Shown: positions 1,877 to 59,279 of the stretch, one piece after another
How the letters are laid out: each line of letters opens with the position of its first letter
How positions within the stretch are numbered: the stretch's first letter is position 1
DNA from: Lutibacter flavus
GTDB taxonomy: Bacteria; Bacteroidota; Bacteroidia; Flavobacteriales; Flavobacteriaceae
Assembly (NCBI RefSeq): GCF_900188355.1
Contig: NZ_FZNX01000002.1
Location: 496,001 to 560,000 of the forward strand
Direction of reading: 5' to 3'
DNA length: 64,000 nucleotides
Program-made: the position numbers and the translations under genes
Notes under the pieces: model-generated
Told to the model about the DNA's origin: nothing
Databases searched by the model: none
The model's input: the letters and a program-made list of their open reading frames with translations, nothing else

Positions 1877-1911
1877 CGAAAACGTTTTCGCTTTTACCGA
1901 AAACGTTTTCG
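1877..1911. promoter_or_regulatory. Pair of identical 14-bp palindromic operators
   Basis: The perfect palindrome CGAAAACGTTTTCG occurs at 1877-1890 and again at 1898-1911. The centres are 21 bp apart, two helical turns, so two dimers would bind the same face. The CG-centred, A/T-armed form is typical of LacI/GalR-family operators. It sits about 120 bp before the GMC oxidoreductase start and 87 bp from the divergent AraC start. No LacI-type gene is in the window, so the regulator is unknown. Confidence 0.75.
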
Positions 1912-2027
1912 ATAGAAAAGAGACCAACTAAAGAAAGTTTTGTATGTACTTTAGAATATGGGAATTAGATATTTTTTATAGCAGTATTTGCTATCGTTTT
2001 TAACACTTTAATTTTTGAATATTTAAA

Positions 2028-3740
2028 ATGAATGAAAATTTAACAACAAATAGCATTGAAAGTTTTGATGCGATTGTAATTGGAACTGGAATTAGCGGCG
2101 GTTGGGCAGCAAAGGAACTCTGTGAAAACGGATTGAAGACATTGGTACTTGAACGAGGAAGAATGGTTAAACATATTGAGGATTATCCAACAATGAATAT
2201 GGATCCTTGGGATTTTGAACATAGAGGCAAAAAAAACCCAAAAGAACTTGAGCGTCAGCAAGTACAAAATAGATCGGGTTATACCACAAGACCTGATACC
2301 AAGCATTGGTTTGTTGATGACATTAAGCATCCTTATAGTGAAGAAAAAAGATTCGACTGGATGAGAGGATATCATGTAGGAGGTAGATCTATAATGTGGG
2401 GTAGACATTCTTATAGATGGAGTGATTTAGATTTTGAAGCCAATAAAAAGGATGGTCATGGTGTAGATTGGCCTATTCGCTATAATGATATTTCAAAATG
2501 GTACGATAAAGTAGAAGAATTTATTGGTGTATCAGGCGAGAATTTAGGACTTCCGCAATTACCTGATGGTAAATTATCAGAGCCAATGGAGTTAAATTGT
2601 GTTGAGCAAGATTTAAGAAAAAGTATGGCAGAAAATTTTGATGGTCGTGTTTTAACTATGGGTAGAATTGCACATAAAACTGGAAATGCAATTCACGAAG
2701 GAAGGTCTAATTGTCAATATAGAAATAGATGTATGAGAGGTTGTCCGTTTGGAGGTTACTTTAGTAGTAATTCTTCAACTTTACCAGCTGCAGACAGAAC
2801 TGGAAATATGACGCTTCGTCCAAATTCCATTGCTTATGAAATTGTTTATGATGATGAAACTGGTAAAGCTTCTGGAGTAAAAATAATAGATACACTTACA
2901 AAAGAGAAAATATTTTATAAAGCTTCGATTATTTTCTGTTGTGCTTCAGCAATGGCTTCATCGGGTATTTTATTGCAATCTAAGTCAAAAAGATTTCCAA
3001 ATGGACTTGGAAATGATAGCGGTGAATTAGGACATAACATTATGGATCATCATTTTAAAGTGGGTGCATCAGCAACGGTTGAGGGTTTTGATGATAAATA
3101 TTACAAGGGAAGAAGACCAGGAGGAATTTATATTCCACGTTTTAGAAACCTTGATGAAAAAAGTGAGCAAAAAGAATTTTTAAGAGGTTATGGTTATCAA
3201 GGTTCTGCAAGCCGGTCTAATTGGCAAAGAGCAGTTTCTGAAATGAGTTATGGAGAAGATTTAAAAGAGGAACTAACAAAGCCAGGACCTTGGACAATTG
3301 GACTAACTGCTTTTGGAGAATGTTTACCATACCATGAAAACAAAGTGACTTTAAATTATGATAAATTAGATGAATGGGGATTACCAACTTTACATTTTGA
3401 TGTTGAGTATAAGGAAAATGAAATGAAAATGAGAAAGGATATGCAAGAGCAGGCTGTTGCCATGTTAAATGCCGCAGGATTTAAAGACGTTCAGGGGTAT
3501 GATGCTCCTTGCCATCCAGGAATTGGTATTCATGAAATGGGAGGCGCAAGAATGGGACATGATCCAAAAACATCTATATTAAATAAGTACAATCAAATTC
3601 ATACGGTACCTAATGTATATGTAACAGATGGAGCTTGTATGACTTCAGCCGCTTGCCAAAATCCGTCATTAACATATATGGCATTAACAGCAAGAGCGGC
3701 AAATTATGCAGCTAAAGAATTTAATAAAAACAAGAAATAG
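2028..3740 (+). CDS. GMC family oxidoreductase, large subunit of a membrane-type sugar dehydrogenase
   Basis: 570 residues. An N-terminal FAD-binding Rossmann motif (VIGTGISGGWAAKEL, about residues 17-31) is followed by the acidic strand end LVLERGR. The C-terminal GMC signature contains the catalytic-region histidine and GGARMGHDP, then TDGACMTSAACQNPSLTYMALTARAA. A Cys cluster (CQYRNRCMRGCPFGGY, about residue 230) resembles that of gluconate 2-dehydrogenase and glucoside 3-dehydrogenase large subunits. There is no signal peptide, so export could depend on the Tat-like small subunit encoded 4 bp downstream. First gene of the operon behind the paired palindromes. Likely role: FAD-dependent oxidation of a sugar or glycoside hydroxyl to a ketone. 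The exact substrate is inference. Confidence 0.88.
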   Translation: MNENLTTNSIESFDAIVIGTGISGGWAAKELCENGLKTLVLERGRMVKHIEDYPTMNMDPWDFEHRGKKNPKELERQQVQNRSGYTTRPDTKHWFVDDIKHPYSEEKRFDWMRGYHVGGRSIMWGRHSYRWSDLDFEANKKDGHGVDWPIRYNDISKWYDKVEEFIGVSGENLGLPQLPDGKLSEPMELNCVEQDLRKSMAENFDGRVLTMGRIAHKTGNAIHEGRSNCQYRNRCMRGCPFGGYFSSNSSTLPAADRTGNMTLRPNSIAYEIVYDDETGKASGVKIIDTLTKEKIFYKASIIFCCASAMASSGILLQSKSKRFPNGLGNDSGELGHNIMDHHFKVGASATVEGFDDKYYKGRRPGGIYIPRFRNLDEKSEQKEFLRGYGYQGSASRSNWQRAVSEMSYGEDLKEELTKPGPWTIGLTAFGECLPYHENKVTLNYDKLDEWGLPTLHFDVEYKENEMKMRKDMQEQAVAMLNAAGFKDVQGYDAPCHPGIGIHEMGGARMGHDPKTSILNKYNQIHTVPNVYVTDGACMTSAACQNPSLTYMALTARAANYAAKEFNKNKK

Positions 3741-3744
3741 ACTT

Positions 3745-4368
3745 ATGAAACGTAGAACAGCACTTAAAAATTTGACATTAAGTATTGGATATGCAGTTGC
3801 AGCGCCAACTTTGTTTAATATGCTTTCATCTTGTACTGCTGAAGTAGAGACATGGAAACCCATATTTTTATCTTCAAATGAAAAACATTTGGTTACGCAT
3901 TTGGTTGATATTATTTTACCATCATCAAATATTCCCGGGGCATTAGATGTAAATGTGCCTCAATTTATTGATAAAATGTATAAAGACATTGAGTTAGAGC
4001 CAAAGCAGAAAATATTTCAACAGGGGGCAGCAATTTTTAGTAAAAAGTTTGAGGATAAATTTGGAAAAAGGATTTCAGAGGTATCAAAAGAAGATATTCA
4101 TACATTATTTGATTCTTATTTTAGATTAACCGAAGAAGAACAGAAACAAGTTATGAATGAACAACGGCAATCTGAAAATGAAATAAATGAAGGCAAAAAG
4201 GAATCTTTTTTAATGTATAAATTTTTGTTTTCAGTAAGATATTATACCTTGTTTGGATATTATTCATCTGAAAAAGTAGGAACGGAAGTATTAAATTATG
4301 ATCCTGTTCCAGGAGTGTACCAAGGATGTATACCGTTAGAAGATGTTGGAAATGCTTGGTCGCTATAA
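3745..4368 (+). CDS. Gluconate 2-dehydrogenase subunit 3 family protein
   Basis: 207 residues from the ATG at 3745, just after the GMC stop. An upstream in-frame start at 3706 would overlap the GMC gene and hide the signal sequence, so it is rejected. The N-terminus (MKRRTALKNLTLSIGYAVAAP) is Tat-like without a full twin-arginine consensus, and is followed by a possible lipobox LSSC. The middle (LVTHLVDIILPSSNIPGALDVNVPQF) is the pattern of gluconate 2-dehydrogenase subunit 3 (gamma). In this family the small subunit partners a GMC FAD subunit and assists its folding or export. The adjacency supports a two-subunit periplasmic sugar dehydrogenase. Confidence 0.85.
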   Translation: MKRRTALKNLTLSIGYAVAAPTLFNMLSSCTAEVETWKPIFLSSNEKHLVTHLVDIILPSSNIPGALDVNVPQFIDKMYKDIELEPKQKIFQQGAAIFSKKFEDKFGKRISEVSKEDIHTLFDSYFRLTEEEQKQVMNEQRQSENEINEGKKESFLMYKFLFSVRYYTLFGYYSSEKVGTEVLNYDPVPGVYQGCIPLEDVGNAWSL

Positions 4369-4492
4369 GTATTTGATTACTAAAAAAATATGAAATTAAA
4401 CTCAATTACAGTCTTAGAGAGCAGAGCTTTATTACAAAGAGATAAAATTATGTCTTATAACTAACATTCCTTCAAATATTTTACAATAAAGT

Positions 4493-5428
4493 ATGGAAAG
4501 AAGATCATTCATTAAAAAAACTACTGCTTTAGCATCAGTTGCAGGTTTGGGATCTGTTGGACTAAATGCAATGAGTCTTATTTCTGAAAAAAAAATAGAT
4601 TCAAAACCAGCATTTAATTTAAATTATGCTCCGCATATTGGAATGTTTAAAAATCATTCTGGAGAAAATCCTATAGATGAAATTAATTTTATGGCTAATC
4701 AGGGATTTACAGCGTTTGAAGATAATGAAATGCGAAACAGACCTGTTGAGTTACAGAAAAAAATGGGTGAGTGTTTGTTAAAGAACAATATAAAAATGGG
4801 TGTTTTTGTTGCTCATAAAATTTATTGGAACAAACCGAGTTTTGCTAGTGGAGATTCATCACATCGCAAAGAATTTTTAACGGATATTATAAACTCAGTT
4901 GAAGTAGCAAAAAGAGTAAATGCTACTTGGATGACAGTTGTTCCAGGGCATTTAGATTTAAGGTTAGATCTAAATTACCAAACAGCAAATGTTGTTGAAT
5001 CTTTAAAGTATGCTTCTGAAATATTAGAAAAAAATAATTTAGTAATGGTTCTGGAACCATTGAATTTTTACAATCATCCAGGTCTTTTTTTAACTGAAAG
5101 TCCGCAGGCATTTCAAATTTGTAAGTCTGTAAATAGCCCTTCTTGTAAAATCTTATTTGATATTTATCATCAACAAATTCAAGAAGGAAATTTATTACCT
5201 AATATTGAAAAAACTTGGGATGAAATTGCTTATTTTCAAATTGGAGACAATCCAGGGAGAAATGAGCCAACAACGGGAGAAATCAATTATAAAAATATTT
5301 TTAAGTTTATTCATTCAAAAGGGTATAAAGGTATTTTAGGAATGGAACATGGCAATTCACTACAAGGAAAAGAAGGCGAATTAGCTGTAATTGATGCTTA
5401 TATAAAGACAGATGATTTTTTAAATTAA
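4493..5428 (+). CDS. Secreted TIM-barrel sugar isomerase (hydroxypyruvate-isomerase-like)
   Basis: 311 residues. A Tat-like leader (MERRSFIKKTTALASVAGLG) precedes a sugar-isomerase/AP-endonuclease-2 barrel. Visible elements are FMANQGFTAFEDNEM, VPGHLDLR, VLEPLNFYNHPG (a metal-ligand Glu) and CKILFDIYHQQIQEGN (Asp/His ligands), ending with GYKGILGMEHGNS. The layout matches hydroxypyruvate isomerase-like members. It is 124 bp after the dehydrogenase small subunit and 6 bp before the Gfo/Idh/MocA gene, so co-transcription is likely. In related Bacteroidota loci such enzymes act on 3-keto-sugars or 3-keto-glycosides. That assignment here is inference. Confidence 0.83.
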   Translation: MERRSFIKKTTALASVAGLGSVGLNAMSLISEKKIDSKPAFNLNYAPHIGMFKNHSGENPIDEINFMANQGFTAFEDNEMRNRPVELQKKMGECLLKNNIKMGVFVAHKIYWNKPSFASGDSSHRKEFLTDIINSVEVAKRVNATWMTVVPGHLDLRLDLNYQTANVVESLKYASEILEKNNLVMVLEPLNFYNHPGLFLTESPQAFQICKSVNSPSCKILFDIYHQQIQEGNLLPNIEKTWDEIAYFQIGDNPGRNEPTTGEINYKNIFKFIHSKGYKGILGMEHGNSLQGKEGELAVIDAYIKTDDFLN

Positions 5429-5434
5429 AAAATT

Positions 5435-6874
5435 ATGAAATCTAATACAAATAAGGGTAGAAGAAAATTTATTAAAAAAACAGCAATTGTGGCTGCCGGA
5501 ATCTCAATAGTACCTAGAGCTGTTTTAGGACGTGGATTTATAGCACCAAGTGATAAATTAAATGTTGCTGTAATTGGTGGTGGAGGTAAAGGTTATAGTG
5601 ACGCTGTTAATGTTTGGAATAAAGGAGCTTCAAATATTGCGGCAATTTGTGATGTTGATTGGAAAAGAGCTGCAAATGCATTTGAAAAATTTCCGAAGGC
5701 AAAACGATATAAAGATTTTAGAAGGTTATTTGATGAAATGACTGATATTGATGCGGTAACAGTGTCAACACCAGATCATACACATGCAGTAATTACACAT
5801 ACAGCCATGCAAATGAATAAGCATGTGTATGTTCAAAAACCTTTAACGCATAGTATTCACGAAGCAAGATTTCTAACAGAGGCTGCAAATAGATATAATA
5901 TAGTAAGCCAAATGGGAAACCAGGGAGCTTCAGGTCAAGGCGTAAAAACCATGGAAAATTGGTTTAATGCCGGAACTATTGGAAAAGTTAGTGAAGTTCA
6001 TGTGTGGACAAACAGACCCGTTTGGCCACAAGGAATTCCAACCCCAACGGATAAACCAACAATGTTAAACGGTTTGGATTGGGATAATTGGGTTGGACCG
6101 GCAAAATGGGTAGATTATCATCCGTTGTATCATCCATTTAAATGGCGAGGTTGGTGGAATTTTGGAACAGGAGCATTAGGAGATATGGGATGTCATTTAA
6201 TAGACCCTCCATTTAGAGTTTTAGGATTAGGATATCCTACAGAAGTTGAAAGCAGTATTGGTGCAATTTATTCAAAGGATTGGGTACCAGATTATTTTCC
6301 AGAATCTTGTCCGCCTTCTTCGCGAACACAGCTCAAATTTCCGGCAAGTGAAAAAAATGCTTGTGAAGTCAAAATGAATTGGACAGATGGAGGCTTGAGA
6401 CCATTTCATCCGGAGTTAATTCCTGCGGATCACTCAATTGGTGATGATGATAGTTCAAATGGAGTTATTATGATAGGTAAAGAAGGAATTATTACCTGCG
6501 GAACTTACGGTAGAAATCCGAAATTATATTTAAATTCAGGTGAAATTATTGAAGGTGATTCAGAAAATGAGCTTGTGAATTTGCCAGAAAATGGACATCC
6601 AACTTTTTGGGTTGAAGCATGTAAAGATGGATTTGGAAGCTCTAAACATAGAGAATTAACATCTTCTTTTGATTTTGCAGGGCCATTAACGGAGTCTATT
6701 TTAATGGGGAATTTGGCAATTAGAAGTTATAATTTACGTGAGAAAAGAGGAAACGGTTATAGTTATCCAGGGCGTAAAAAATTATTATGGGACGGTGTTA
6801 ATATGAGAATAACTAATTTTGAGGATGCCAATCAATTTGTAAGAAGAGAATATAGAAAAGGTTGGACTTTATAA
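5435..6874 (+). CDS. Gfo/Idh/MocA family oxidoreductase with Tat-like signal
   Basis: 479 residues. The leader GRRKFIKKTAIVAAGISIVP contains the RRKFIKK twin-arginine motif, suggesting export. The NAD(P)-binding Rossmann motif follows (LNVAVIGGGGKGYSDAV), with AAICDVDWKRA at the second strand. The family Lys motif reads VQKPLTHS, with Gln in place of the usual Glu of EKP. The C-terminal substrate domain includes WRGWWNFGTGALGDMGCHLID, typical of the exported Bacteroidota subgroup. Members of this group oxidise or reduce sugars or glycosides at C3 using a tightly bound nucleotide. Last gene of the operon. It ends one base from the convergent lipoprotein gene. Confidence 0.88.
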   Translation: MKSNTNKGRRKFIKKTAIVAAGISIVPRAVLGRGFIAPSDKLNVAVIGGGGKGYSDAVNVWNKGASNIAAICDVDWKRAANAFEKFPKAKRYKDFRRLFDEMTDIDAVTVSTPDHTHAVITHTAMQMNKHVYVQKPLTHSIHEARFLTEAANRYNIVSQMGNQGASGQGVKTMENWFNAGTIGKVSEVHVWTNRPVWPQGIPTPTDKPTMLNGLDWDNWVGPAKWVDYHPLYHPFKWRGWWNFGTGALGDMGCHLIDPPFRVLGLGYPTEVESSIGAIYSKDWVPDYFPESCPPSSRTQLKFPASEKNACEVKMNWTDGGLRPFHPELIPADHSIGDDDSSNGVIMIGKEGIITCGTYGRNPKLYLNSGEIIEGDSENELVNLPENGHPTFWVEACKDGFGSSKHRELTSSFDFAGPLTESILMGNLAIRSYNLREKRGNGYSYPGRKKLLWDGVNMRITNFEDANQFVRREYRKGWTL

Positions 6875-6875
6875 A

Positions 6876-7265
6876 CTAAAAAATTGCGATACATTTTCCA
6901 TTAATACACTCAACATTCGAAGGAGGTGAAACAGCCATACAATCAGAAATAATATTCCATTTTATGTTGTATTCATTTTCAAGTTTATTATAAAAATTCA
7001 CTTTTTCTTTTAATAGAGCAACATTAATATTGCTGCTATAGACTAAATAACTCCAAGCACCGCCACAAGGTTTACTGCCAAATGCAATAAATTCGCAAGT
7101 AGTCGTTTCTGAACAATCTTCTGAATTTATAATTTGCTCAATTTCATTTTTTAAATTTAATAATTCAAGCTTTTCTTCTTCTTGACTAGGTTCAGAGTTT
7201 TTTGAACAACTAAAAACGATTGCCATAAAGACAATCGTTTTTATAATATGTTTAAATACTTTCAT
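6876..7265 (-). CDS. Small lipoprotein of unknown function
   Basis: 129 residues. The signal peptide ends in the lipobox V-F-S-C (Cys20). The mature part has a charged, helical stretch (EEEKLELLNLKNEIEQII), then a Cys-containing compact region: EDCSETTTCEFIAFGSKPCGGAW, SDCMAV and CINGKCIAIF. The even number of cysteines suggests disulfides in the periplasm or at the surface. I do not recognise a named family with confidence. It is followed at once by the convergent oxidoreductase gene, with one base between stop codons. No neighbour suggests a function. Confidence 0.75.
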   Translation of the reverse strand: MKVFKHIIKTIVFMAIVFSCSKNSEPSQEEEKLELLNLKNEIEQIINSEDCSETTTCEFIAFGSKPCGGAWSYLVYSSNINVALLKEKVNFYNKLENEYNIKWNIISDCMAVSPPSNVECINGKCIAIF

Positions 7266-7316
7266 AACCTTAATTTAAATAGTTTTGATATTTAACTATA
7301 AAATTAACAAAATATT

Positions 7317-7727
7317 TTAGCAATATTCGTCGTAAGCTGCAGCTAAATTAGATGCAATAACTTCAGCAGGTCTTCCTTCAATGTGATGACGTTCAAGCAT
7401 ATGAACTAATACTCCATCTTTAAATAAAGCAATTGCAGGGGATGAAGGAGGAAAAGGAACCATATGGTCACGGGCAGCAGTAGTAGCTTCAGTGTCAACT
7501 CCTGCAAAAACAGTTACTAAATTGGTTGGAACTTTATCAAATTGTAATGAAACTACTGCTCCTGGACGAGCAGTACCTGCGGCACAACCACAAACAGAAT
7601 TAACTACAACTAATGTAGTTCCTTCTTTTTTTAGGGCTTCTTCAACATCTTGTGCTGTATGTAATGATGTAAAACCTGCACTTTCTAATTCTTGCTGCAT
7701 TGGTTTTACTAATTCTGGTGGATACAT
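7317..7727 (-). CDS. BrxA/BrxB family bacilliredoxin
   Basis: 136 residues, starting [14 protein letters not shown]. The thioredoxin-like fold carries the characteristic C-G-C active site in [18 protein letters not shown] (Cys52 and Cys54 region), which defines the YphP/BrxA/BrxB (DUF1094) family. Bacilliredoxins of Firmicutes remove bacillithiol from protein thiols. Many Bacteroidota carry the same proteins, consistent with low-molecular-weight thiol chemistry in these organisms. The length fits the family and the protein is cytoplasmic. A Bacteroidota -7 box lies at 7766-7773 on the same strand. Confidence 0.9.
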
Positions 7728-47120: not shown

Positions 47121-48890
47121 ATGCAACAACCATTAGAATTTTATACGAATCAAAAATTAATTTTTGAATTAGAATTATCTAAATTAAAAAAGAAATTATC
47201 AGTTTCAAGTGTCTTGAGATTGCTTACTTTTTCAGCTATAATTTTAGGGGTTTATTTATTTTTTGGAAACCTTCCAGCCATTTTTTCAATAATAGGAGTT
47301 GGGGTTATTTTATTTCTATATTTATTATTTAGACATAGTAATTTACAGTACAAATACAATCTAAACAAAGCATTAATTGAAATAAACAACATAGAAATTA
47401 AAGTTTTAAATAGAGATTATCTTCATTTAGATGATGGAAGTGAATTTATAAATCCAAAACATCCTTTTAGTTATGATATTGATTTGTTTGGAAAAGGCTC
47501 TTTTTTTCAATACTGTAATAGAACTGTAACTTTTGAAGGTAAAAATGAGTTGTTTTCTGAATTAACTTCAAACACTATTTTATCTATTGAAAACAAACAA
47601 AAAGGAATTAAAGAATTAAGCGAGAAACCTAAATGGAGACAACATTTTTCAGCAATTGCAAGTTTGGTGAAAGTGGAGCATTCAGCAAAAGAAATTGTTA
47701 ATTGGATTCATAATTATAAGTCTAATTTCCCTAAATACTTTTCTTATTTACCAAAGGTGTTTTCTTTAATATCATTAACATTGATGGTACTTTTAGGACT
47801 GCAAATTATTCCTGAAATTGTGTTGTTGCTATGGTTTTTTATTGGTTTAGGGATTTCGGGTTCTTACCTTAAAAAAGTAAATGAATTGTATGAAAATTCG
47901 GGTAACGCTAAAGACACGTTTAAACAAAACCACAAATTATTAAATGAAATAGAAACAACTTCTTTTTCATCAGGTGTTTTGAAGAATAAACAGTTAGAAA
48001 TTAAAAATGAAAATGAAAAAGCATCCATAATTTTTAAGAAGTTCTCTAAATTATTAGATGCTTTGGATCAACGAAATAATTTAATAATTGGCGTTATAGG
48101 AAATGGTTTTTTTCTTCGGGATTTACAGTTAGTTTATAATATAGAGAATTGGATAGGTAGTTATAAAAATAACGTTGAGAATTGGTTTAAAGTTATTGCG
48201 TTTTTTGATGCTCAAAATTCGTTGGCCAACTATGCGTTTAATCATCCTAATTATAATTTTCCTAAAATTAATAAGGATAAAAATGTAATTTCTGCTAACA
48301 AATTAGGACATCCTTTATTGAAAGAGAAACAACGAATTGATAACGATTTTACAATTGAAAATCAGCAATTTTTCATTATTACCGGAGCCAATATGGCTGG
48401 AAAAAGTACTTTTTTAAGAACTGTTTCCCTATCAATTGTGATGGCAAATATGGGATTGCCGGTTTGTGCCAAAAGCTTTGAATATGCTCCAATTAAATTG
48501 ATTACAAGTATGAGAACATCGGACTCTTTGGCGGATGATGAATCGTATTTCTTTTCGGAATTAAAAAGGTTGAAGTTTATTGTTGATGAAATAGAAAGTG
48601 ATGATTATTTTATCATTTTAGATGAAATATTAAAAGGTACAAATAGTACAGATAAGGCAATTGGATCTAAGAAATTTGTTCAAAAATTAGTAGCTTCTAA
48701 TTCTACTGGAATTATAGCTACACACGATTTAAGTTTGTGCGAAATTGAAAAAGAATTAACAGAAGTTAAAAATTTCTATTTTGATGCAGAAATTATAAAT
48801 GATGAATTACATTTCGACTATCAGTTAAAAAATGGAATTTGTAAAAATATGAACGCATCTTTTTTATTAAAAAAAATGAAGATAGTTTAA
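47121..48890 (+). CDS. Membrane-anchored MutS-like ATPase
   Basis: 589 residues. Two pairs of membrane helices are visible, at about 35-75 and about 205-255. A MutS lever/ATPase region follows. The Walker A GANMAGKSTFLRT (about residue 420), DDESYFFSELKRL, and Walker B YFIILDEILKGTNSTDK with GIIATHDLSL are all intact. It lacks the mismatch-recognition domain, so it is not MutS1. It belongs to a membrane MutS-like group common in Bacteroidota, of unknown role. Its last codons form the left arm of a terminator and lie in the direct repeat that flanks the giant gene. Confidence 0.86.
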   Translation: MQQPLEFYTNQKLIFELELSKLKKKLSVSSVLRLLTFSAIILGVYLFFGNLPAIFSIIGVGVILFLYLLFRHSNLQYKYNLNKALIEINNIEIKVLNRDYLHLDDGSEFINPKHPFSYDIDLFGKGSFFQYCNRTVTFEGKNELFSELTSNTILSIENKQKGIKELSEKPKWRQHFSAIASLVKVEHSAKEIVNWIHNYKSNFPKYFSYLPKVFSLISLTLMVLLGLQIIPEIVLLLWFFIGLGISGSYLKKVNELYENSGNAKDTFKQNHKLLNEIETTSFSSGVLKNKQLEIKNENEKASIIFKKFSKLLDALDQRNNLIIGVIGNGFFLRDLQLVYNIENWIGSYKNNVENWFKVIAFFDAQNSLANYAFNHPNYNFPKINKDKNVISANKLGHPLLKEKQRIDNDFTIENQQFFIITGANMAGKSTFLRTVSLSIVMANMGLPVCAKSFEYAPIKLITSMRTSDSLADDESYFFSELKRLKFIVDEIESDDYFIILDEILKGTNSTDKAIGSKKFVQKLVASNSTGIIATHDLSLCEIEKELTEVKNFYFDAEIINDELHFDYQLKNGICKNMNASFLLKKMKIV

Positions 48891-48904
48891 GGATGCGAAT
48901 TCAC
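48870..48904. repeat. Left copy of 35-bp direct repeat flanking the giant gene
   Basis: Seven A, then TGAAGATAGTTTAAGGATG, one variable base (C), and GAATTCAC. The same occurs at 58837-58871 with T as the only difference. This copy holds the true 3' end of the MutS-like gene. On the reverse strand it also reads GVNSHP-stop, a relic of the moaE C-terminus. Confidence 0.92.
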
Positions 48905-48928
48905 TCCTAAACTATCTTCATTTTAAAA
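48873..48928. terminator. Long hairpin terminator between the MutS-like and giant genes
   Basis: A 17-bp perfect stem (48873-48889 with 48908-48924), extended by GGA/TCC after one bulged A, with an 11-base loop. T and A runs on both sides allow termination in both directions. The right arm is an inverted copy of the MutS-like 3' end. Confidence 0.85.
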
Positions 48929-48931
48929 TAT

Positions 48932-51900
48932 CTACTCTTTTATAATTTTAACGGAAACAGGATTCTCTAAATGCACTTTTATTAGATATACTGCATTAGG
49001 TTTATTTCGAATATCTAATTGTACTTTTCCATTAATTACTTGATAAACTTCAGAAGAAATAAGTTGTGAGTTTAAAGTAAACAAATCAATTTTTACTTCT
49101 TTTAATGATAATGGTAAGGCTACTTCAAAAATCCCTTTTGTAGGATTTGGGAAAACTACAATTTCTTCAAATAAGTTTATAGTTTTTGAGAAAATACCTT
49201 CACAACTAATTGCTGTTTTTATTTCAATTAAATCTCCATGTTTATTATTTAAATCAAATGTTGAAGACATTGTTTTAAATACTAATTGTCCGTTTACGAT
49301 TACATCAAAAGGAGCAGTTCCTTTTTCAATTACAATAGCTGTTTTATTTGCGGTTGTACTCGCTTTTCCAGAAACTGTTTCACCTTCTGCTATTTCAATG
49401 GTATAACATTGTTTAGAAGTTACGTTAGGAACAGTTATGCAAATATCATAAGTCCCGGGTTCTAAATTTTCAATTGTTAAATCATTGGTTAAATTGTATT
49501 CACTGTCATTTATAGTTACTAAATAATCATATGTAATTGTTGAAGCTATTTTAATTTGACCATTGTTTTTATTTGGACAAGTTTCATTAATAGTTTCAAT
49601 TTTAAAATTGTTTGAAGGCAATACTATACACCCGTTAAAATTAACAATTTCTCCTTCTGGAGTTTCTGGGCATAGATCTTTATCATTCATTACACCATCA
49701 TTATCATCATCTAATTGACTTTGAGAACAACCATTTTCGTTTACGGTTTCTCCTTCTGGAGTTTCTGGGCATAAATCATTTTCATTTAAAATTCCATCTC
49801 CATCGATATCAATACTTGAACAATCTTCAGAAAAGATAGTAAGAGTGTCTTTATACCATTCTTTGTAATTACCTTCTTTATTGTTAGCCGCTGTTTCATT
49901 AGCGACTTGAATACACCCTAAACTAGAATTCCCTCTAGAATCCATATTTATTAATTCAAAATTATAGCTTAAATCTAAATTGGTTAAGTAATTATTAAAA
50001 CCATAAAACTGTTCTAGTTTACTATTCGCAGTTAAATTAAGAGTCTCAAGTAGATTGTCATTTAAAATAATTCTTACCAATTTTAAGTTTTTACTCAAAT
50101 CTAAATTAGTTAATTGATTACCATATAGATATAGGTATTCGAGTTTTGAATTTTCAGTAATATCTATACTTGTTAGTTGATTGCCATAACAAAATAAAGA
50201 TATTAAATTCAAATGTGCACTTATATCTATACTTGATAAACTATTAATGCCACAATCTAAAAATTGCAACTCTATGTTATTATCTACATCTAATTCTGTT
50301 AGTTGATTCCAGGTACAATCCAGATGTAACAATTTAGAATTTTTGCTTAGGTCTAAGTTTGTCAAACTATTTTCTCGACAAACTAATATTTCCAAATTTA
50401 TATTATTATCTAAATCTAATTTTGTTAGTTGATTCCTAGAGCAATGTAATTGTGACAATTTAGTGTTTTTGTTTACATCTAAGTTTGTTAGTTGATTATC
50501 ATTACAATTAAGCAAACCTAAATTCTCATTTTGACTTATATCTAAGCTTGATATCAGATTTCCATAACAGTTAAGGTTTTCTAACTCTGAATGCTGACTG
50601 ACATTTAAATTTTGTAACTCATTTTTAGAGCAATTGAGTTCTGTTAAATTTTTAAAGGCCTCTATTCCTGTTAAATCTTTAATTTCTTTTTCTGATACAT
50701 TTAAATTACTTACTTTTAAAGCATCTTCATTGTTTATTTGTTTATTTATAATTCCATCACTATCAATCCCTAAATCTATTAATGCCTGTTCAAAATTAGC
50801 ATCTGGTATGTAAACAATTTGATTAACTGAACAACCATTTTCATCAACGGATTCACCTATTGGTGTTTCTGGGCAAAAATCATTCTCATTTAAAACACCA
50901 TCACCATCAAAATCTGTATTTGAACAATTTTCAGAATAAAAAGTAAAAGAATCTTTATACCATTCATTATAATTATCTACTCCATTATTAGCATTTACCT
51001 CATTGTCTACTTGAATACAAAATAAATTAGGATTATTCACAGAATTAAAATAATTTAACTCAAGATTATTACTTAAATCTAAAGAAGTTAGCTGATTATT
51101 TTTACAGCTAAAACTAGCTAAGTGCTTATTATATTGTAGGTCTATATTAATAAGTTGATTATTATCGCAATAAAAATACAATAATTGCACATTATTACTC
51201 ACATCCAAGCTATTTAGCGGATTATTATAGCATAGAAAATTGGTTAAATTAATATTGTTGCTAACATCTAAACTACTTATTTGATTATTAAAACATTGAA
51301 AATTAGTTAAATTAATATTATTACTAACATCTAAATTTACCAATTGATTCGTATGACAAAACAAATCCTCTAATTCAATGTTTTCTCTAACATTTAATTC
51401 AGAGAATTGATTATTATAACACCAAAATGAACGTAGTTTAGTATTTTTACTTACATCTAATTTGGCTATTTGATTGTCATTACACCATAAAGTATGTAAT
51501 TTAGTATTTTTACTTACATCTAAATTTGTTAACTCATTAGTATGGCAAACAAAACTTTTTAATTTAGTGTTTTTACTTACATCAATATTTGCCAAATTAT
51601 TATTAGAACAATGAAAATATTCTAGATTTATATTGTTACTAATATCTATACTGGTTAGTTGATTATTACCACCATAATAATAAGTCAGCTGAATATTATT
51701 GCTTAAATCTATACTAGTTAATTCATTGTCTGAGCATGAAAGTGTTCTTAGATAATTACTTTTACTAACATTTAAGCTACTTAATTGATTAAGAGTACAA
51801 TTAACTCCAATTAGTTGTTTGTTTTTACTTAAATCTAAATTTGTTAATTCGTTAGAGCCACAATATAAATATTGTAAATTTTCAAAGGCTTCTATTCCTG

Positions 51901-54900
51901 TTAAATCTTTAATTTCTTTTTCTGAAACGTTTAAACTATTTACATTTAAAGCATCAATCTTAGAAATTTGTTTATTAATAATTCCATCACTATCAATTCC
52001 TAAATCTATTAATGCCTGTTCAAAATTAGCATCTGGAATTACTACAATTTGATTGACTGAACAACCATTTTCATCTACAGTTTCACCTGAAGGTGTGTCT
52101 GGGCAAATATCAATGTTATTTAATACACCATCATCATCAAAATCTGTATTTGAACAATTTTCAGAATAGATAGTGAAAGTATCTTTTTGCCATTCTTTAT
52201 AATTACCTTCTTTATTATTAGCAGCTGTTTCGTTTCCTACTTCAATACAAAATAAATTAGGGTTGTTAGAAGAATTAAATTCAACTAATTCAAGATTGTT
52301 TTTCAAATTTAAATTTGATAATTCATTATCAGATATGTTTACTTCTTCAAGATTTGAATTAAAGCTAAAATCAATATTTTTAAACTGGTTAGATTTACCT
52401 AGAAAAACTCTTAAGGCTACATTTTGACTTAAATCTAAACTCTCTAATTTGTTTTCACTACAATAAATAACGGCTAAGTCTTTTTGGTTAGATAAATTTA
52501 ATTCTGTAATATTATTTCCAATACAATTAAACCCAGTTATTTTTTTATTTTGAGAAATATCAATTGAAGTAAACTGATTATATTCTATTTGGAGTCCTGT
52601 TAACTCTGTGTTTTTACTAACATCCAAATTATTTAATTGATTTGCAGAACAGTCTAAATTTATTAATTTTATATTATTACTTACGTTTAGACTTGTTAGA
52701 TTATTTATTTGAACATGTAAATATTCTAAATTTTTAAAGGCTTCTATTCCTGATAAATCAGCTATATTTTTTTCAATTAAAATCAATTCACCAACATTTA
52801 CGGCATCATATAGAAACATCTCTCCATTTATTTTGCCATCGCTATCAATCCCTAAATCAATTAGTGCTTGTTCAAAATTAGGATCTGGTATATAAACAAT
52901 TTGATTAACGGAACAACCATTTGCATCAACCGAATCACCTAAAGGAGTATTAGGGCAAATATCATTTTCGTTCAAGACTCCATCATCATCAAAATCTGGA
53001 TTGGAACAGTTTTCTGAATAAAATGCTGATGAATCTTTATACCATTCTTTATAATTACCTACTCCTTCATTCGCTGCCGCCTCATTTAAAACTTGAATAC
53101 AACTTAAATCTAAATTGTTTGTAGAATTAAATTTTCCCAAATCAATACAGCTACTTATATCTAGATTTGTAAGTTGATTGTTGTAACAATGAAAACGAGT
53201 TAACTTACTATTTTTTATTAAAACAAGACTTGTTAGTTGGTTATTTGAACAATCAAAATTTTCTAACTTACCATTTTCACTAACATCTAAACTCGTTAAT
53301 TTATTATTATTACAAATGAGCTGAATCAATTGATTATTATTTTTTACATCTAGTAGTTGAAGAAAATTCTTCCAACAATAAAATAAACTTAATTTAGTGT
53401 TTTTACTAACATCAATACTAGTAAGGTTATTGTTGTAACAATAAAAATCGATTAATTTTGTGTTTTTAGTTACATCTAATTCTGTAAGGAGATTATCATA
53501 ACAGTATATAGAAGTTAAATTTGTATTATTAGTAACATCCAAATTTTCTAATAAGTTTTTTGAGCAATTAAGTAAAACTAACTGTCCATTAATACTTAAG
53601 TTAAGGTTAACTAACAAATTGTTTTCACAATGAAGGAAATTTAATTTATAGTTTTGATTTGTATTTAATAATGAAAGTTGATTATTGGAACAACTTAATT
53701 GAATTAAGTTACTTAACATAGTTACGTCTAATTCTGTAAGCAAATTGACTGAACAACCCAGATCAACAATTTCCTTATTTTGACTTAAATCTAAACTTGA
53801 TAATTGATTATTATAACAATTTAATTCTAATAGCTTTAAATTCTTGCTTACATCTAAACTTTTCAAGTTATTAGAAAAACAGGTTAATTCTAATAAGTTT
53901 TCAAATCCTTCAATGCCTACTAAGCTTTCAATTTCTTTTTCTGAAACGTTTAAATTATTAACATTTAAAGCATCAACCTTAGATATTTGTTTGTTAATAA
54001 TTCCGTCACTATCAATTCCTAAATCTATTAATGCCTGTTCAAAATTAGCATCTGGTATGTTAATTTTTGAATTTGACAAAGTACAACCAACATCATTAAC
54101 CGCTTCTCCTAATGGAGTTCCTGAGCATTGATCTATGTCATTTGTTACACCATCACTATCATCATCTAGTTGACTTTGTGAACAGCCATTTTCATCTACG
54201 GTTTTTCCACTTAGTGTATCTGGACATAAATCTATTCCGTTTAAAACTCCGTCATTATCATCATCCAACTGACTTTCTGAGCAACCATTAGCATCTACAG
54301 ATTCTCCAATTGGTGTATTTGAACATTGATCTGCATCATTCAAAACACCATCTCCATCATCATCTAACTGACTTTCTGAGCATCCTGATGCATCTACAGT
54401 TTCTCCTGTTGGTGTATTTGAACATTGATCTGCATCATTTGTTACTCCATCATTATCATCGTCTAACTGGTTATCTGCACACCCATTCTCATTTACAGTT
54501 TTTCCACTTAGTGTATCTGGACATAAATCTATTCCATTCAAAACGCCATCACTATCATCATCTAATTGACTTTGTGAACAGCCATTTTCATCTACCGTTT
54601 CTCCTGTTGGTGTATTTAAGCATTGATCTGCATCATTCATAACACCATCGTTATCATCATCTAACTGACTCTCTGAGCATCCTAATGCATTTACAGCTTC
54701 CCCAGTTGGTGTATTTGGGCAAATATCAATATCATTCATAATACCATCTAAATCATCGTCTAAAAGTTGACTTTGTGAACAACCATTAGCATCTACAGAT
54801 TCTCCAATTGGTGTATTTGGACATTGATCATTATCGTTTATAACGCCATCTCCATCATTATCTCCATTTGAACAATATACTGAATAAATAGAAAACGTAT

Positions 54901-57900
54901 CTTTATTCCAATTACTGTAATTACCTTCACCATTATTAGCCTCTATTTCATTCGCTACTTGAATACAAACTAAATCGGGATTATCAGTAGTATTTAAATG
55001 TTTTAAACTTAAGTTATTGCTTAAATCTAAACTTGTTAAATTATTGTCATGACAATATAAACTTGTTAATTGAATATTCTTTCTAACATTTAATTCTTTT
55101 ATTAAATTAAAATAACAAGAGATAAAAATTAACTTAGGGTTATTAGTAATATCTATAACTTGTAATTGATTACTATTGCACACGAAGCTAGTTAATTCTT
55201 CGTTTTCACTTACATCTATACTTGTTATCTTATTAAAGCCACATTGAAATGAAGATAGTTTTAAATTTCTACTAACATCTAAACTTTTAAACTCGTTGCT
55301 CGTACATAACAAAACCCTTAAGTTTAGATTCTTACTAGTATCTAGGTTGGTTAACTCATTTGAACCACAGTCAAAATAATCTAATTCAAAATTATGAGTA
55401 ATATCAATACTTTTTAATTGATTATTACTACAATTAAGACTTTTCAATTCACTATTTTTACTTAAGTCTATACTTGTTAGTTCATTGCTATTACAATAAA
55501 TTGATAATAAATTTTTAAAACCTTCTATTCCTGTTAAATCTTTAATTCCATAACGGGAAACATCTAATCTATCAACTAATAATGCATCATCCTTTAGAAT
55601 TTGCTTATTAATAATTCCATCACTATCAAAACCTAAGTCAATTAAAGCTTGTTCAAAATATGTATCGGGAATTATAATTATTTCATTTAAAGAACAGCCA
55701 TGTTCATTTACCTCATCTCCAAAAGGTGTATTTATACAAATATCAATATCATTCATCACTCCATCTTTATCGTCATCTAATAGTTGGCTTTCTGAACACC
55801 CAACAGTATTTACTTCTTCTGCAGAAGGAGTATTCGGACAAATATCAATATCATTCATCACACCATCTTCATCGTCATCTAATTGACTTTCGGAACAACC
55901 ATTTGAATCTACTATCTCTCCTAAAGGAGTATTAGGACATTTATCAATTAAATTTAAAACTCCGTCTCCATCCAAATCATCTTCACTATTATCTGAAGTC
56001 ATATTACTTGGTGTTGTAACATATAATTCAGAACCGCTTTTACTATTGCTAGCTCTAAAATAGATTTTATCACCACTTACTCCAAGTGATTCTATTCCAT
56101 TATAATTATCAAAGTATTGATTATTTTCAGTTTGAATATTAACTTTATATAGTTCATTTTGCTTCCCACTTGTCATCCAAAAGTTTAAATTAGGAGTTGT
56201 TTTAAAAATTAAATTATCTTTAAATGGAAGCATTTGGTAAATTTTATCACCTATTTCACTCTCATCTGTAATTTTAATAGTTCCATCAACAGTTCCATCC
56301 GTTCTCCATAGTTCATCACTTGGAGCGGTGTAATTTGTTGATGTTGTTTGAAGACCAAAGTAAACATATTCTCCAGAAGCTACTATATCTTCAATATCAA
56401 GTGATGGAATAGAATGAGTGGATGCATCAAATAATAAAATAGTTCCTTCAACAGTACCATTGGTTTTGTATAGACCTCTTCGATATTTTTCGGGATCTTG
56501 TGCAACAAAATATAATTCATCATTTAAATTTAAAAAACCAGTAATGCCAGAAAAACTATCGTTAAACGTTTTAATAAAGTAGGTTCCCTCAACTGTCCCA
56601 TCGGATGCCCATAAATCATTAGAACCATAAGATGAATTTGATGTGTTTGCAAAAAAGATTAACTTCTCATTAGCTACATTTAACCTCTCAGGATATTTAA
56701 TATCTATTATTTTTAAAGTACCCGAATAAGTGCCGTCGGTTGTCCATAAAGCTCCTCCATTAGCTTCGTAAGCAGTAAAATAAATTTTTTCATTAAGAAT
56801 CACAAGATTACTTCCTCCACCACTATTTGCCCCTTGCCTTATATCTTTAATCATATAGGTTCCTGATTCTGTTCCACTACTTCTCCATAACTCAAAACCA
56901 TTTATACCGTTGTCAGCTTTAAAATAGAGAATGTCGTTAATTACTGTGAACGACTGTTTTTCATTATAATTCCTCATACTACTTCCTGCACCCGGTTTAA
57001 TATCTTTAACCATGTATGTACCATCTTCCGTTCCATCGCTTCTCCATAATTCATATCCATGATTACTACTTGAGGCACTAAAATATAGAATACCATTGAT
57101 GTCTCTCATATCAGTTTTATCATCAATATATATATTAGATTTTATCTTTTTAGTACCATTAATTGTACCATCACTTTTATATAATGATTCATTGGCTCTA
57201 AAAAAAAGTTCTCCATTAACATCTTTAAATCTTGCAGGATAGCTTCCTTTTGAATGAACTAAATCTAAAAAAAGCGTTGTTCCAGAAATCGTTCCGTCAG
57301 TAATCCATAATTCATTTCCATACGTATCATCTTCACCTGTAATAATTGTATTGTTATTAATACTGACAAAACTTTCTTCTAATCCAGAACTGTTACTATC
57401 TTTAATATTTGATAATTCAAATGTTCCTGTAGAGGACCCATCACTAATCCATAAAGTTTTATTAGAAGAATTTGTACTAGTTGAAAAAAATAAAAGCTTA
57501 TTATTTACTTCATCTACATGAAATTTATCTATCCATACTCCAGCATTTCCTATATTAATATCTTTTAATAATTCTGTTCCATTTGAAGTTCCATCAGTTT
57601 TCCATATTTCATCTCCGTCAATACCATTATTAGCAACGAAGTATATAAAATTATTAAATTTCACAAACTTACTATTATAAGAAATACTATTGAAATTTGT
57701 GTTGTTTATGTCCTTAATCATAGTTGTTCCAGACTCAGTTCCATCACTTTTCCATATTTCTGTTCCATTTATTCCGTCATTTGCTTCAAAAATTATTATG
57801 TTGTTAAGAACACTCCCTTTTAATGCATTTGCACTGGAGTTGTTGCCAACCATTATATCTTTCATTATGCTTGTGCCTATTTCAGTTCCATCACTTTTCC

Positions 57901-58699
57901 ATAATTCTGTGCCATTTATTCCATTATTAGCGAAAAAATAAAAGTGATTATTCATTATTAAGAACTGATTTCCACTATTCAATCCTGAATAGTTAGGGTT
58001 AATGTCTTTAATCAATTTTGTTCCAGATTCAGTTCCATCACTTTTCCATAATTCTGCCCCAATTATTCCATCATCAGCAATAAAATATAGCTCATTATTA
58101 AAAACAAATAGATCTCTTGGAGAACTACTTGCTTCATTTGGATTGATATCTTTGACTAGCCTCGTACCGGACTCGGTTCCATCACTTACCCATAATTCAA
58201 TTCCATTTATACCATCAGTAGCAGTAAAATATAATTTATCATTAAAGCTGACAAAATTATTAGGGCCGTTGTATGCATTTGTGCTATTTGGATTTATGTC
58301 TTTAACCATGTTTGTACCAGCCTCAGTCCCATTACTTGTCCATAATTCTACACCGTTTAAACCGTTATTTGCTGTAAAAAATAGATTACCACCTATTATT
58401 ACAAGATTTTTAGGGTTAGAAGAATTCTTTCCTGAATAAATGTCTTTTATTAATGAAGTGCCTTCTGGAGTACCATCTGAATACCACAACTCCCTACCAA
58501 TAGGTCCTGAGTAGTCATCATCTGTGGCTGTGAAATAAAATCCTGATTGATTGAGTGTAAAATCCTGTGGATTACTATCTGCATGGAAATTTAATTCTAT
58601 TAAAGTAGCTTTTAAAACTGCATTTTGAGCAATCGTAAATTTAAAACTTAATAAAAAAAATAAAAAGATTAAAACTCCATGGGTATGAATTTTTTTCAT
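48932..58699 (-). CDS. Giant secreted repeat protein: ELWxSDGT repeats, TSP3 repeats, five LRR blocks, type IX sorting signal
   Basis: 3255 residues. Signal peptide to about residue 25. Residues about 45-890 contain many copies of a roughly 45-residue repeat with the core ELWKSDGTESGT, probably a beta-propeller-like region. Next come calcium-binding thrombospondin type-3 repeats (DDDxDGVxNDxDxCPNTP) at about 905-1000, about 1278-1540, and singly before each later block. Five leucine-rich blocks follow (about 1008-1256, 1546-1875, 1936-2158, 2218-2568, 2629-2938). Each opens with PDxxFEQALIDLGxDSDGxIN and continues as 21-22-residue LRRs (LTxLDVSKNxxLxxLxCxxN). The end (PNPTKGIFEVALPLSLKEVK to IIKE) is a type A sorting signal for the type IX system. 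Probably a surface adhesin. It has its own -7 box at 58720-58727. Confidence 0.93.
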   Translation of the reverse strand: MKKIHTHGVLIFLFFLLSFKFTIAQNAVLKATLIELNFHADSNPQDFTLNQSGFYFTATDDDYSGPIGRELWYSDGTPEGTSLIKDIYSGKNSSNPKNLVIIGGNLFFTANNGLNGVELWTSNGTEAGTNMVKDINPNSTNAYNGPNNFVSFNDKLYFTATDGINGIELWVSDGTESGTRLVKDINPNEASSSPRDLFVFNNELYFIADDGIIGAELWKSDGTESGTKLIKDINPNYSGLNSGNQFLIMNNHFYFFANNGINGTELWKSDGTEIGTSIMKDIMVGNNSSANALKGSVLNNIIIFEANDGINGTEIWKSDGTESGTTMIKDINNTNFNSISYNSKFVKFNNFIYFVANNGIDGDEIWKTDGTSNGTELLKDINIGNAGVWIDKFHVDEVNNKLLFFSTSTNSSNKTLWISDGSSTGTFELSNIKDSNSSGLEESFVSINNNTIITGEDDTYGNELWITDGTISGTTLFLDLVHSKGSYPARFKDVNGELFFRANESLYKSDGTINGTKKIKSNIYIDDKTDMRDINGILYFSASSSNHGYELWRSDGTEDGTYMVKDIKPGAGSSMRNYNEKQSFTVINDILYFKADNGINGFELWRSSGTESGTYMIKDIRQGANSGGGSNLVILNEKIYFTAYEANGGALWTTDGTYSGTLKIIDIKYPERLNVANEKLIFFANTSNSSYGSNDLWASDGTVEGTYFIKTFNDSFSGITGFLNLNDELYFVAQDPEKYRRGLYKTNGTVEGTILLFDASTHSIPSLDIEDIVASGEYVYFGLQTTSTNYTAPSDELWRTDGTVDGTIKITDESEIGDKIYQMLPFKDNLIFKTTPNLNFWMTSGKQNELYKVNIQTENNQYFDNYNGIESLGVSGDKIYFRASNSKSGSELYVTTPSNMTSDNSEDDLDGDGVLNLIDKCPNTPLGEIVDSNGCSESQLDDDEDGVMNDIDICPNTPSAEEVNTVGCSESQLLDDDKDGVMNDIDICINTPFGDEVNEHGCSLNEIIIIPDTYFEQALIDLGFDSDGIINKQILKDDALLVDRLDVSRYGIKDLTGIEGFKNLLSIYCNSNELTSIDLSKNSELKSLNCSNNQLKSIDITHNFELDYFDCGSNELTNLDTSKNLNLRVLLCTSNEFKSLDVSRNLKLSSFQCGFNKITSIDVSENEELTSFVCNSNQLQVIDITNNPKLIFISCYFNLIKELNVRKNIQLTSLYCHDNNLTSLDLSNNLSLKHLNTTDNPDLVCIQVANEIEANNGEGNYSNWNKDTFSIYSVYCSNGDNDGDGVINDNDQCPNTPIGESVDANGCSQSQLLDDDLDGIMNDIDICPNTPTGEAVNALGCSESQLDDDNDGVMNDADQCLNTPTGETVDENGCSQSQLDDDSDGVLNGIDLCPDTLSGKTVNENGCADNQLDDDNDGVTNDADQCSNTPTGETVDASGCSESQLDDDGDGVLNDADQCSNTPIGESVDANGCSESQLDDDNDGVLNGIDLCPDTLSGKTVDENGCSQSQLDDDSDGVTNDIDQCSGTPLGEAVNDVGCTLSNSKINIPDANFEQALIDLGIDSDGIINKQISKVDALNVNNLNVSEKEIESLVGIEGFENLLELTCFSNNLKSLDVSKNLKLLELNCYNNQLSSLDLSQNKEIVDLGCSVNLLTELDVTMLSNLIQLSCSNNQLSLLNTNQNYKLNFLHCENNLLVNLNLSINGQLVLLNCSKNLLENLDVTNNTNLTSIYCYDNLLTELDVTKNTKLIDFYCYNNNLTSIDVSKNTKLSLFYCWKNFLQLLDVKNNNQLIQLICNNNKLTSLDVSENGKLENFDCSNNQLTSLVLIKNSKLTRFHCYNNQLTNLDISSCIDLGKFNSTNNLDLSCIQVLNEAAANEGVGNYKEWYKDSSAFYSENCSNPDFDDDGVLNENDICPNTPLGDSVDANGCSVNQIVYIPDPNFEQALIDLGIDSDGKINGEMFLYDAVNVGELILIEKNIADLSGIEAFKNLEYLHVQINNLTSLNVSNNIKLINLDCSANQLNNLDVSKNTELTGLQIEYNQFTSIDISQNKKITGFNCIGNNITELNLSNQKDLAVIYCSENKLESLDLSQNVALRVFLGKSNQFKNIDFSFNSNLEEVNISDNELSNLNLKNNLELVEFNSSNNPNLFCIEVGNETAANNKEGNYKEWQKDTFTIYSENCSNTDFDDDGVLNNIDICPDTPSGETVDENGCSVNQIVVIPDANFEQALIDLGIDSDGIINKQISKIDALNVNSLNVSEKEIKDLTGIEAFENLQYLYCGSNELTNLDLSKNKQLIGVNCTLNQLSSLNVSKSNYLRTLSCSDNELTSIDLSNNIQLTYYYGGNNQLTSIDISNNINLEYFHCSNNNLANIDVSKNTKLKSFVCHTNELTNLDVSKNTKLHTLWCNDNQIAKLDVSKNTKLRSFWCYNNQFSELNVRENIELEDLFCHTNQLVNLDVSNNINLTNFQCFNNQISSLDVSNNINLTNFLCYNNPLNSLDVSNNVQLLYFYCDNNQLINIDLQYNKHLASFSCKNNQLTSLDLSNNLELNYFNSVNNPNLFCIQVDNEVNANNGVDNYNEWYKDSFTFYSENCSNTDFDGDGVLNENDFCPETPIGESVDENGCSVNQIVYIPDANFEQALIDLGIDSDGIINKQINNEDALKVSNLNVSEKEIKDLTGIEAFKNLTELNCSKNELQNLNVSQHSELENLNCYGNLISSLDISQNENLGLLNCNDNQLTNLDVNKNTKLSQLHCSRNQLTKLDLDNNINLEILVCRENSLTNLDLSKNSKLLHLDCTWNQLTELDVDNNIELQFLDCGINSLSSIDISAHLNLISLFCYGNQLTSIDITENSKLEYLYLYGNQLTNLDLSKNLKLVRIILNDNLLETLNLTANSKLEQFYGFNNYLTNLDLSYNFELINMDSRGNSSLGCIQVANETAANNKEGNYKEWYKDTLTIFSEDCSSIDIDGDGILNENDLCPETPEGETVNENGCSQSQLDDDNDGVMNDKDLCPETPEGEIVNFNGCIVLPSNNFKIETINETCPNKNNGQIKIASTITYDYLVTINDSEYNLTNDLTIENLEPGTYDICITVPNVTSKQCYTIEIAEGETVSGKASTTANKTAIVIEKGTAPFDVIVNGQLVFKTMSSTFDLNNKHGDLIEIKTAISCEGIFSKTINLFEEIVVFPNPTKGIFEVALPLSLKEVKIDLFTLNSQLISSEVYQVINGKVQLDIRNKPNAVYLIKVHLENPVSVKIIKE
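49885..55676 (-). repeat. Five LRR blocks duplicated within the giant gene
   Basis: The blocks lie at about 54930-55676, 53075-54062, 52225-52893, 50995-52045 and 49885-50813. Each begins with nearly the same 70-bp DNA segment (encoding FEQALIDLGIDSDGIINK) and ends with a conserved CIQVxNExxAN module and one TSP3 repeat. The DNA similarity of the leading segments shows recent internal duplication or gene conversion. The number of LRR units differs between blocks. Confidence 0.88.
54078..54866 (-). repeat. Tandem 99-bp TSP3 array (about eight units)
   Basis: Eight units of 33 residues (DDDxDGVxNDxDQCxNTPxGExVDxNGCSxSQL). A variant unit with LCPDTLSGKTV occurs twice, three units apart, suggesting duplication of a three-unit block. 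Each unit can bind calcium. The region is coding, not a CRISPR or satellite. Confidence 0.9.
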
Positions 58700-58719
58700 A
58701 GTATAGCAATTTTCAACCT

Positions 58720-58727
58720 CAAATATA
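58720..58727 (-). promoter_or_regulatory. -7 promoter box of the giant gene
   Basis: The reverse strand reads TATATTTG, 20 bp before the ATG at 58699. It lies inside the inserted segment, so the gene carries its own promoter. A clear -33 TTG is not seen. Confidence 0.55.
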
Positions 58728-58836
58728 ATTATATTATTGTTGGTGTTGGATGACTTATATCAATTTACTTGAAAAGCAGTTTATTAAAATGTAAAAACAA
58801 GAGCTAAAACTGCTTGTTCAGAGATAGAGGATTGTT

Positions 58837-58871
58837 AAAAAAATGAAGATAGTTTAAGGATGTGAATTCAC
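58837..58871. repeat. Right copy of 35-bp direct repeat flanking the giant gene
   Basis: Same sequence as 48870-48904 with one base changed. This copy holds the true 3' end of moaE (VNSHP-stop on the reverse strand). On the forward strand it keeps KKMKIV-stop, the C-terminus of the MutS-like protein, although no gene leads into it. Confidence 0.92.
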
Positions 58872-59279
58872 CCAAACTTCACCATCTTCAAAATGTTCTT
58901 TTTTCCAGATTGGTACAGTTTCTTTTAGGGTGTCAATAGCAAATTCACAAGCTTCAAAAGCGGCTTTTCTATGTGCAGAAGAAACAGCAATTATTACTGG
59001 AATTTCACCAATTTTAAGTTCACCAAGTGCATGGTGAATTGCAATTTTGTGAATGTCGAATTTTACCATAGCTAAGTCAGCAATTTTTTGCATTTCTTTA
59101 ATTGCCATTGGTTCGTAACCGCTAAAATCTAATAAGGTCACTTCTTTATTTTTTGTTGCATTTCTAACGGTGCCAACAAATAAAGAAATCCCTCCACAAG
59201 ATGCATCTTGCACAAAACTGTAACAATCTTGTAAATTTAATTTTTCTGATGTTATTTTAATAGAGGTATTTATTGTCAT
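58854..59279 (-). CDS. moaE: Molybdopterin synthase catalytic subunit MoaE
   Basis: 141 residues from the ATG at 59279; a TTG at 59300 is rejected. Motifs: CGGISLFVGTVRNATKNKEV, LDFSGYEPMA, IHHALGELKIGE, SSAHRKAAFEACEFAID, and the active-site Lys in VPIWKKEHFEDGEVW. With MoaD it inserts dithiolene sulfur into cPMP. Its 3' end lies in the right direct repeat. Separated from the forward moa genes by the giant gene. Confidence 0.94.
   Translation of the reverse strand: MTINTSIKITSEKLNLQDCYSFVQDASCGGISLFVGTVRNATKNKEVTLLDFSGYEPMAIKEMQKIADLAMVKFDIHKIAIHHALGELKIGEIPVIIAVSSAHRKAAFEACEFAIDTLKETVPIWKKEHFEDGEVWVNSHP

Follow-up and report, generated by a model that had tools for sequence, protein, structure and literature searches.

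The 10K island of R. anatipestifer, located in a tRNA-Arg gene, is a tyrosine-integrase island with 53-base-pair (bp) direct repeats (PMC6764341), template switching is reported to create hairpins (PMC8794818), and surface proteins of Porphyromonas gingivalis undergo domain exchange such that their variants form a mosaic unrelated to the strain tree (PMC5266723). Here we describe a locus of Lutibacter flavus (assembly GCF_900188355.1, contig NZ_FZNX01000002.1, forward-strand positions 496,001 to 560,000; this 64,000-nucleotide stretch is the window, to which all coordinates refer) in which a single giant gene lies between a MutS-like gene and moaE, and in which the joined ends of these two convergent neighbours are duplicated on either side of it. 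As the mechanism, replication template switching is favoured over site-specific integration.

Like the R. anatipestifer island and the tRNA-Asp islands found in Lutibacter, the insert stands at the 3' end of a gene, with that end restored and direct repeats on its flanks; unlike them, it is one gene with no recognised integrase, its target is moaE, and the flank of the islands is absent (PMC6764341). Integration into a protein-coding gene is a feature shared with the dusA islands, which reportedly differ in using the 5' end and in carrying an integrase (PMC4482086). A literature search on Lutibacter islands found no paper on such islands.

Inspection of the two ends of the insert reveals copies of a 35-bp sequence placed 9,967 bp apart (Table 1), identical at 34 of 35 bases, with 26 in a single exact run and a single giant open reading frame (ORF) between them. 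Among the 15 longest exact direct repeats of the window with more than 100 bp between copies, this is the only one outside the giant gene, and when the sequences flanking the gene are aligned locally with each other they score 70, where the best of 100 shuffles reaches 29. The preliminary description of this DNA had proposed both the near-perfect repeat and the reading frames that it contains, and both are borne out. On the minus strand, the left copy reads GVNSHP-stop, a relic of the moaE end, and the right copy reads WVNSHP-stop, the moaE end itself; on the forward strand, the right copy reads KKMKIV-stop, a relic of the MutS-like tail, so that each copy retains a relic of the other gene. 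When gaps are allowed, the likeness of the two junction copies reaches 58-60 bp, moaE end included. The right copy starts in an A-tract common to the MutS-like tail and carries the synonymous form of that tail found in its own lineage, a form present in 3 of the 29 tails read in the genus.

A common dispersed element, which the same description had named as a finding that would speak against insertion, was considered and rejected. The first 26 bases of the repeat, with up to three mismatches allowed, occur at exactly two sites in the whole L. flavus genome, both of them the repeat copies. A 24-base junction pattern, at the same tolerance, occurs at six places in 5 of 38 Lutibacter genomes, all of which are by their coordinates either moaE ends or the two L. 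flavus copies. The 35-base repeat had no match in a search against plasmids, as is expected of so short a query. Inverted repeats were also examined with a transposon in mind, and none of the 25 longest of the 71 inverted pairs connects the two ends of the insert.

To describe the same junction in relatives, moaE was located in 34 of the 38 Lutibacter genomes, and 32 junctions could be read, with G035 (a weak 39% match) and G034 (locus cut by a contig end) left out and the second moaE copies of G020 and G029 kept outside the count. In 14 of the 32, the convergent MutS-like gene and moaE are no more than 50 bp apart, and in 8 of these 14 their stops overlap; the preliminary description had suggested looking for relatives in which the two genes adjoin and converge. 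A further seven junctions have 80-230 bp between the two genes, seven have thiF in place of the MutS-like gene, and two (G037 and G008) have another large gene between the MutS-like gene and moaE. A giant gene is present in only two, L. flavus and G007, the latter lacking the repeat as such; occupancy of the same place in all relatives without a repeat, the second finding named as contrary to insertion, was thus not seen. Named records were also inspected at 32 of 80 loci, about ten of these being repeats of the same genomes, and neither the giant protein nor its C-terminus had a BLAST match at the 32 loci. Because the MutS-like gene and moaE meet directly in relatives, the giant gene is best understood as an insertion that duplicated the joined gene ends, and the uninterrupted junctions together with the lack of giant-protein matches at the examined loci make insertion the simple reading. 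The proposal that the giant gene entered a compact convergent junction, which was duplicated, is supported by the uninterrupted site in relatives.

Other occupants of this junction were observed along the way. The G037 gene (locus L034) encodes kinase and receiver domains, and the G008 locus (L038) holds another large gene; no duplicated junction was seen by eye at either. In the group with 80-230 bp between genes (L010, L012, L015, L016, L018, L019, L008), a stretch recurs near CCCTTTCC-AAGGAAAGGG, perhaps a dispersed small repeat. At L041, L042 and L044 (G026, G025 and G024), three genomes in which no moaE was found, sequence resembling a decayed moaE end follows the MutS-like stop.

The nearest relative at the locus is G007 (moaE 92%, moaD 86%, thiF 87.5%), where a 1474-residue giant gene adjoins moaE. 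The promoter regions of the two giant genes align with a score of 109 (shuffle maximum 32), the two proteins share 80% identity over their final 296 aligned residues, and alignment of the 3' flanks gives 66, with shuffles reaching 35. Since the G007 gene shares site, promoter region, C-terminus and 3' flank with that of L. flavus, the comparison supports an insertion older than L. flavus, probably in its common ancestor with G007. The only MutS matches in the G007 genome are two distant ones at about 30% identity (best 5.9e-17), which indicates that the MutS-like gene was lost there. The flank of its giant gene nevertheless reads like a moaE end and then like a MutS-like tail in inverse orientation; it contains CCTAAACAATTTTCATTTT, the inverse of such a tail in the form found in G005.

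Both ends of the insert are also associated with hairpins. Positions 48873-48893 and 48905-48925 are near-perfect inverse copies of each other, such that the arms of the left hairpin consist of the last MutS-like codons and their inverse copy adjoining the stop of the giant gene. On the minus strand, this hairpin folds at -25.8 kcal/mol (z -8) and is likely the terminator of the giant gene. The right hairpin, at the moaE end, is weaker (-17.8 kcal/mol, z -2.3, with 4 of 200 shuffles equally good) and is a possible moaE terminator. The natural junction seems to keep the moaE terminator within the last codons of the MutS-like gene; duplication of such a junction would therefore leave moaE one hairpin and the giant gene a stronger one. 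Because the joined gene ends were duplicated, both neighbours remain intact, with a hairpin at the moaE end and another at the end of the giant gene. A hairpin in which one arm is the coding sequence of a neighbour offers a clean case of terminator origin at overlapping gene ends. The preliminary description had assigned the segment its own -7 box and terminator: a -7-like TATATTTG, which we take to be a Bacteroidota promoter box, does stand at 58720-58727 on the minus strand and is present in G007 too, and the hairpin was found, with its role as terminator put here no higher than likely. That description had not noticed the hairpin itself, nor the giant gene that G007 has at this site without the right-hand copy, nor the islands on which some relatives of the gene reside. 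The giant protein carries a Por_Secre_tail domain (28.2 bits, cut-off 27), the C-terminal sorting domain of type IX secreted surface proteins.

Table 1. Features of the L. flavus locus, in window coordinates
Feature	Position	Strand	Basis or remark
MutS-like gene (MutS domain V), convergent left neighbour, intact	47121..48890	+	ORF; Pfam MutS_V 103 bits
Left repeat copy	48870..48904		MutS-like gene end and relic of moaE end
Near-perfect hairpin, likely terminator of giant gene	48873..48925	-	Fold and arms
Giant gene, 3255 residues: repeat head, LRR, TSP3, C-terminal sorting domain	48932..58699	-	ORF and Pfam
C-terminal domain, 236 residues, query for family search	48935..49642	-	Matches in 36 of 38 genomes
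N-terminal repeat head, ELWxSDGT-type repeats	56090..58609	-	Label from reading the sequence
Promoter/5' region of giant gene	58700..58836	-	Alike in G007
Right repeat copy	58837..58871		moaE end and relic of MutS-like tail
Weaker hairpin, possible moaE terminator	58843..58893	-	Fold
moaE, right neighbour, intact	58854..59276	-	ORF; Pfam MoaE 134 bits

We favour insertion of the giant gene by replication template switching. Under this path, a single giant gene would have entered between the MutS-like gene and moaE in an ancestor shared by L. flavus and G007, when a strand whose synthesis had passed from the MutS-like tail into the moaE end folded back and copied the tail in inverse, giving the hairpin arm. 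The strand would then have moved to a giant-gene template, copied the giant gene, returned at the A-tract of the MutS-like tail and run on into moaE, giving the second junction copy; loss of the MutS-like gene in G007 would have come later, in an order of events that we infer. Template switching is favoured because one event then accounts for the inverse arm as well as for the second direct copy and the A-tract boundary. As in the hairpins attributed to template switching, an inverse copy of a neighbouring stretch yields a near-perfect hairpin; unlike what the abstract of that report describes, a 10-kb gene would here be copied in the same event (PMC8794818). A literature search on template-switch insertions found none.

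Several observations weigh against this path. G007 lacks the right-hand copy, and a MutS-like relic of greater length was looked for to the right of its gene without success, with scores at shuffle level; the 35-bp duplication is thus complete in a single genome and may represent a second event. Alignment of the two moaE-like ends in G007 gives 28 where shuffles reach 36, and a second test gave 35 against a shuffle maximum of 33, at another place; neither score stands out clearly from the shuffles. No candidate donor carrying these flanks came to light, the path itself is not observable, and the carriage of relatives of the gene on islands favours site-specific integration. Because the missing right copy of G007 also permits a two-step history, we place the probability of template switching at only about one half.

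The strongest rival, which we consider unlikely all the same, is site-specific integration, whereby an integrative element, with an attachment site matching the moaE end and its hairpin, carried the giant gene in; moaE would have been restored, two attachment copies left, and the integrase lost later. Restored moaE and repeats are what this reading would produce, the terminal repeats do match the target gene end, and genes of the same C-terminal subfamily reside in tRNA-Asp islands of three genomes, G007, G025 and G026. The G007 island, bounded by tRNA-Asp on one side and by a repeat of the last 14 tRNA bases with a hairpin on the other, contains a single gene, of this subfamily, and about 0.5 kb of further sequence; here too the gene has the orientation of its target gene and adjoins the distal copy. 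The G025 island combines a giant gene adjoining the distal copy with AbiEii and restriction genes, as well as, judging by eye, a frame that resembles an integrase but is interrupted by stops; that of G026 holds an integrase and a giant gene, with a mutated distal tRNA copy (read by eye). L. flavus itself has a tRNA-Asp island of about 6 kb (L272, C4:234000-250000, 1091-7520) with genes for an integrase and an AAA-domain protein and with the tRNA tail repeated, but without a giant gene.

Several observations nevertheless argue against site-specific integration. A Pfam scan of the giant protein, which did not extend to the small antisense ORFs inside the gene, detected no integrase or transposase domain in the insert, and no integrase was seen by eye in the starts of the next three ORFs, where present, at the 32 named-record loci. 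The 3' flanks of the three island genes are alike (81-120 against shuffle maxima of 35-39), their 5' flanks are not (23-36), and the island 3' flank is shared by neither moaE-linked gene (18-25, within shuffles; for the flank at the distal end of the giant gene, 21-25 against shuffle maxima of 30-35). A tree built from 88 C-terminal domains pairs the moaE-linked genes of L. flavus and G007 as sisters (100/98) within an 11-row clade (98/95) that also holds the three island genes and six others; the island genes do not form one branch within this clade, and the row nearest to the moaE-linked pair is L069, an L. flavus gene not at tRNA-Asp. The MutS-like tail in the right junction copy is, moreover, that of its own lineage. 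A gene closely related to the giant gene was also observed at L268 (G033:C72, 7691-18030), beside genes that, to judge from reading their sequence, resemble a type I restriction cluster.

The family was further examined for repeats at 89 gene ends (three more were cut), using 800 bp upstream and 500 bp downstream; a few of the ORFs are mis-delimited, one of 28 residues among them. Two stand out, the L. flavus giant gene (70) and the tRNA-Asp gene of G007 (66). The remaining ends score at most 36, and among the matches listed (the best 16 of the 89) none of them lies more than 2 above its own shuffle maximum. A gene of L071 has a borderline repeat (40 against a shuffle maximum of 36). When the tails of 25 tRNA isoacceptors were sought downstream, 2 of the 89 gene ends had one on the same strand. 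The larger islands of G025 and G026 were missed because of the span of the test and were recognised from gene context. With close repeats on both sides at only 2 of 89 ends, repeats close to the gene were rejected as a general habit of giant genes; a mechanism by which these genes regularly make long target duplications is not supported. A rather doubtful extension is that giant genes of this subfamily move as one-gene units without an encoded recombinase and take as their boundary the hairpin and 3' end of whichever host gene they join (moaE or tRNA-Asp); such movement would occur either in trans or through template switching by fold-back at the hairpins of gene ends.

Two further histories appear quite improbable, each to a similar degree. 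A single crossover at 35-60 bp of shared sequence could have brought in a circle from a related strain carrying the giant gene and one junction copy, an event that needs no recombinase gene to yield direct copies on either side; it requires a pre-existing circle with this junction, of which none was seen, and such homology is short for homologous recombination. Alternatively, the giant gene may have been inserted without duplication of the tail, and the MutS-like tail later copied rightwards by gene conversion in the L. flavus lineage. G007, with its giant gene and no right-hand MutS-like relic, is consistent with such conversion, which requires two events, and the G007 relic may have vanished after loss of the MutS-like gene. 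Chance likeness of two terminator-like sequences, although both copies lie in hairpins with T-runs, is ruled out by the shuffles and by identity that spans codons of two genes with their relics.

The giant genes of L. flavus and G007 differ in their N-terminal heads. Reprolysin-like heads occur in the moaE-linked gene of G007 and the three island genes, with 36-46% identity between the G007 head and those of the islands. The G007 head also shares 44% identity with the head of a reprolysin-like gene elsewhere in the L. flavus genome, so its likeness does not point to the islands alone. The repeat head of L. flavus had no match in the 37 other Lutibacter genomes (E up to 1e-10), and was matched in 26 other genomes of 299 in the family (E up to 1e-20). 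The head was probably exchanged in one lineage after insertion, and the absence of the repeat head from other Lutibacter, together with the reprolysin-like heads of G007 and the islands, makes the L. flavus gene the likelier to have changed. As in P. gingivalis, domain variants are found in surface proteins; unlike there, the entire N-terminal head differs between two species with promoter region and C-terminus kept (PMC5266723).

Taken with its uninterrupted relatives and a sister species, the locus is a well-bounded case of a very large surface-protein gene entering a core metabolic locus with its neighbours undamaged. The link of its C-terminal subfamily to tRNA-Asp islands suggests how genes for adhesin-like proteins and proteases may spread in Bacteroidota, by a route that can be tested.

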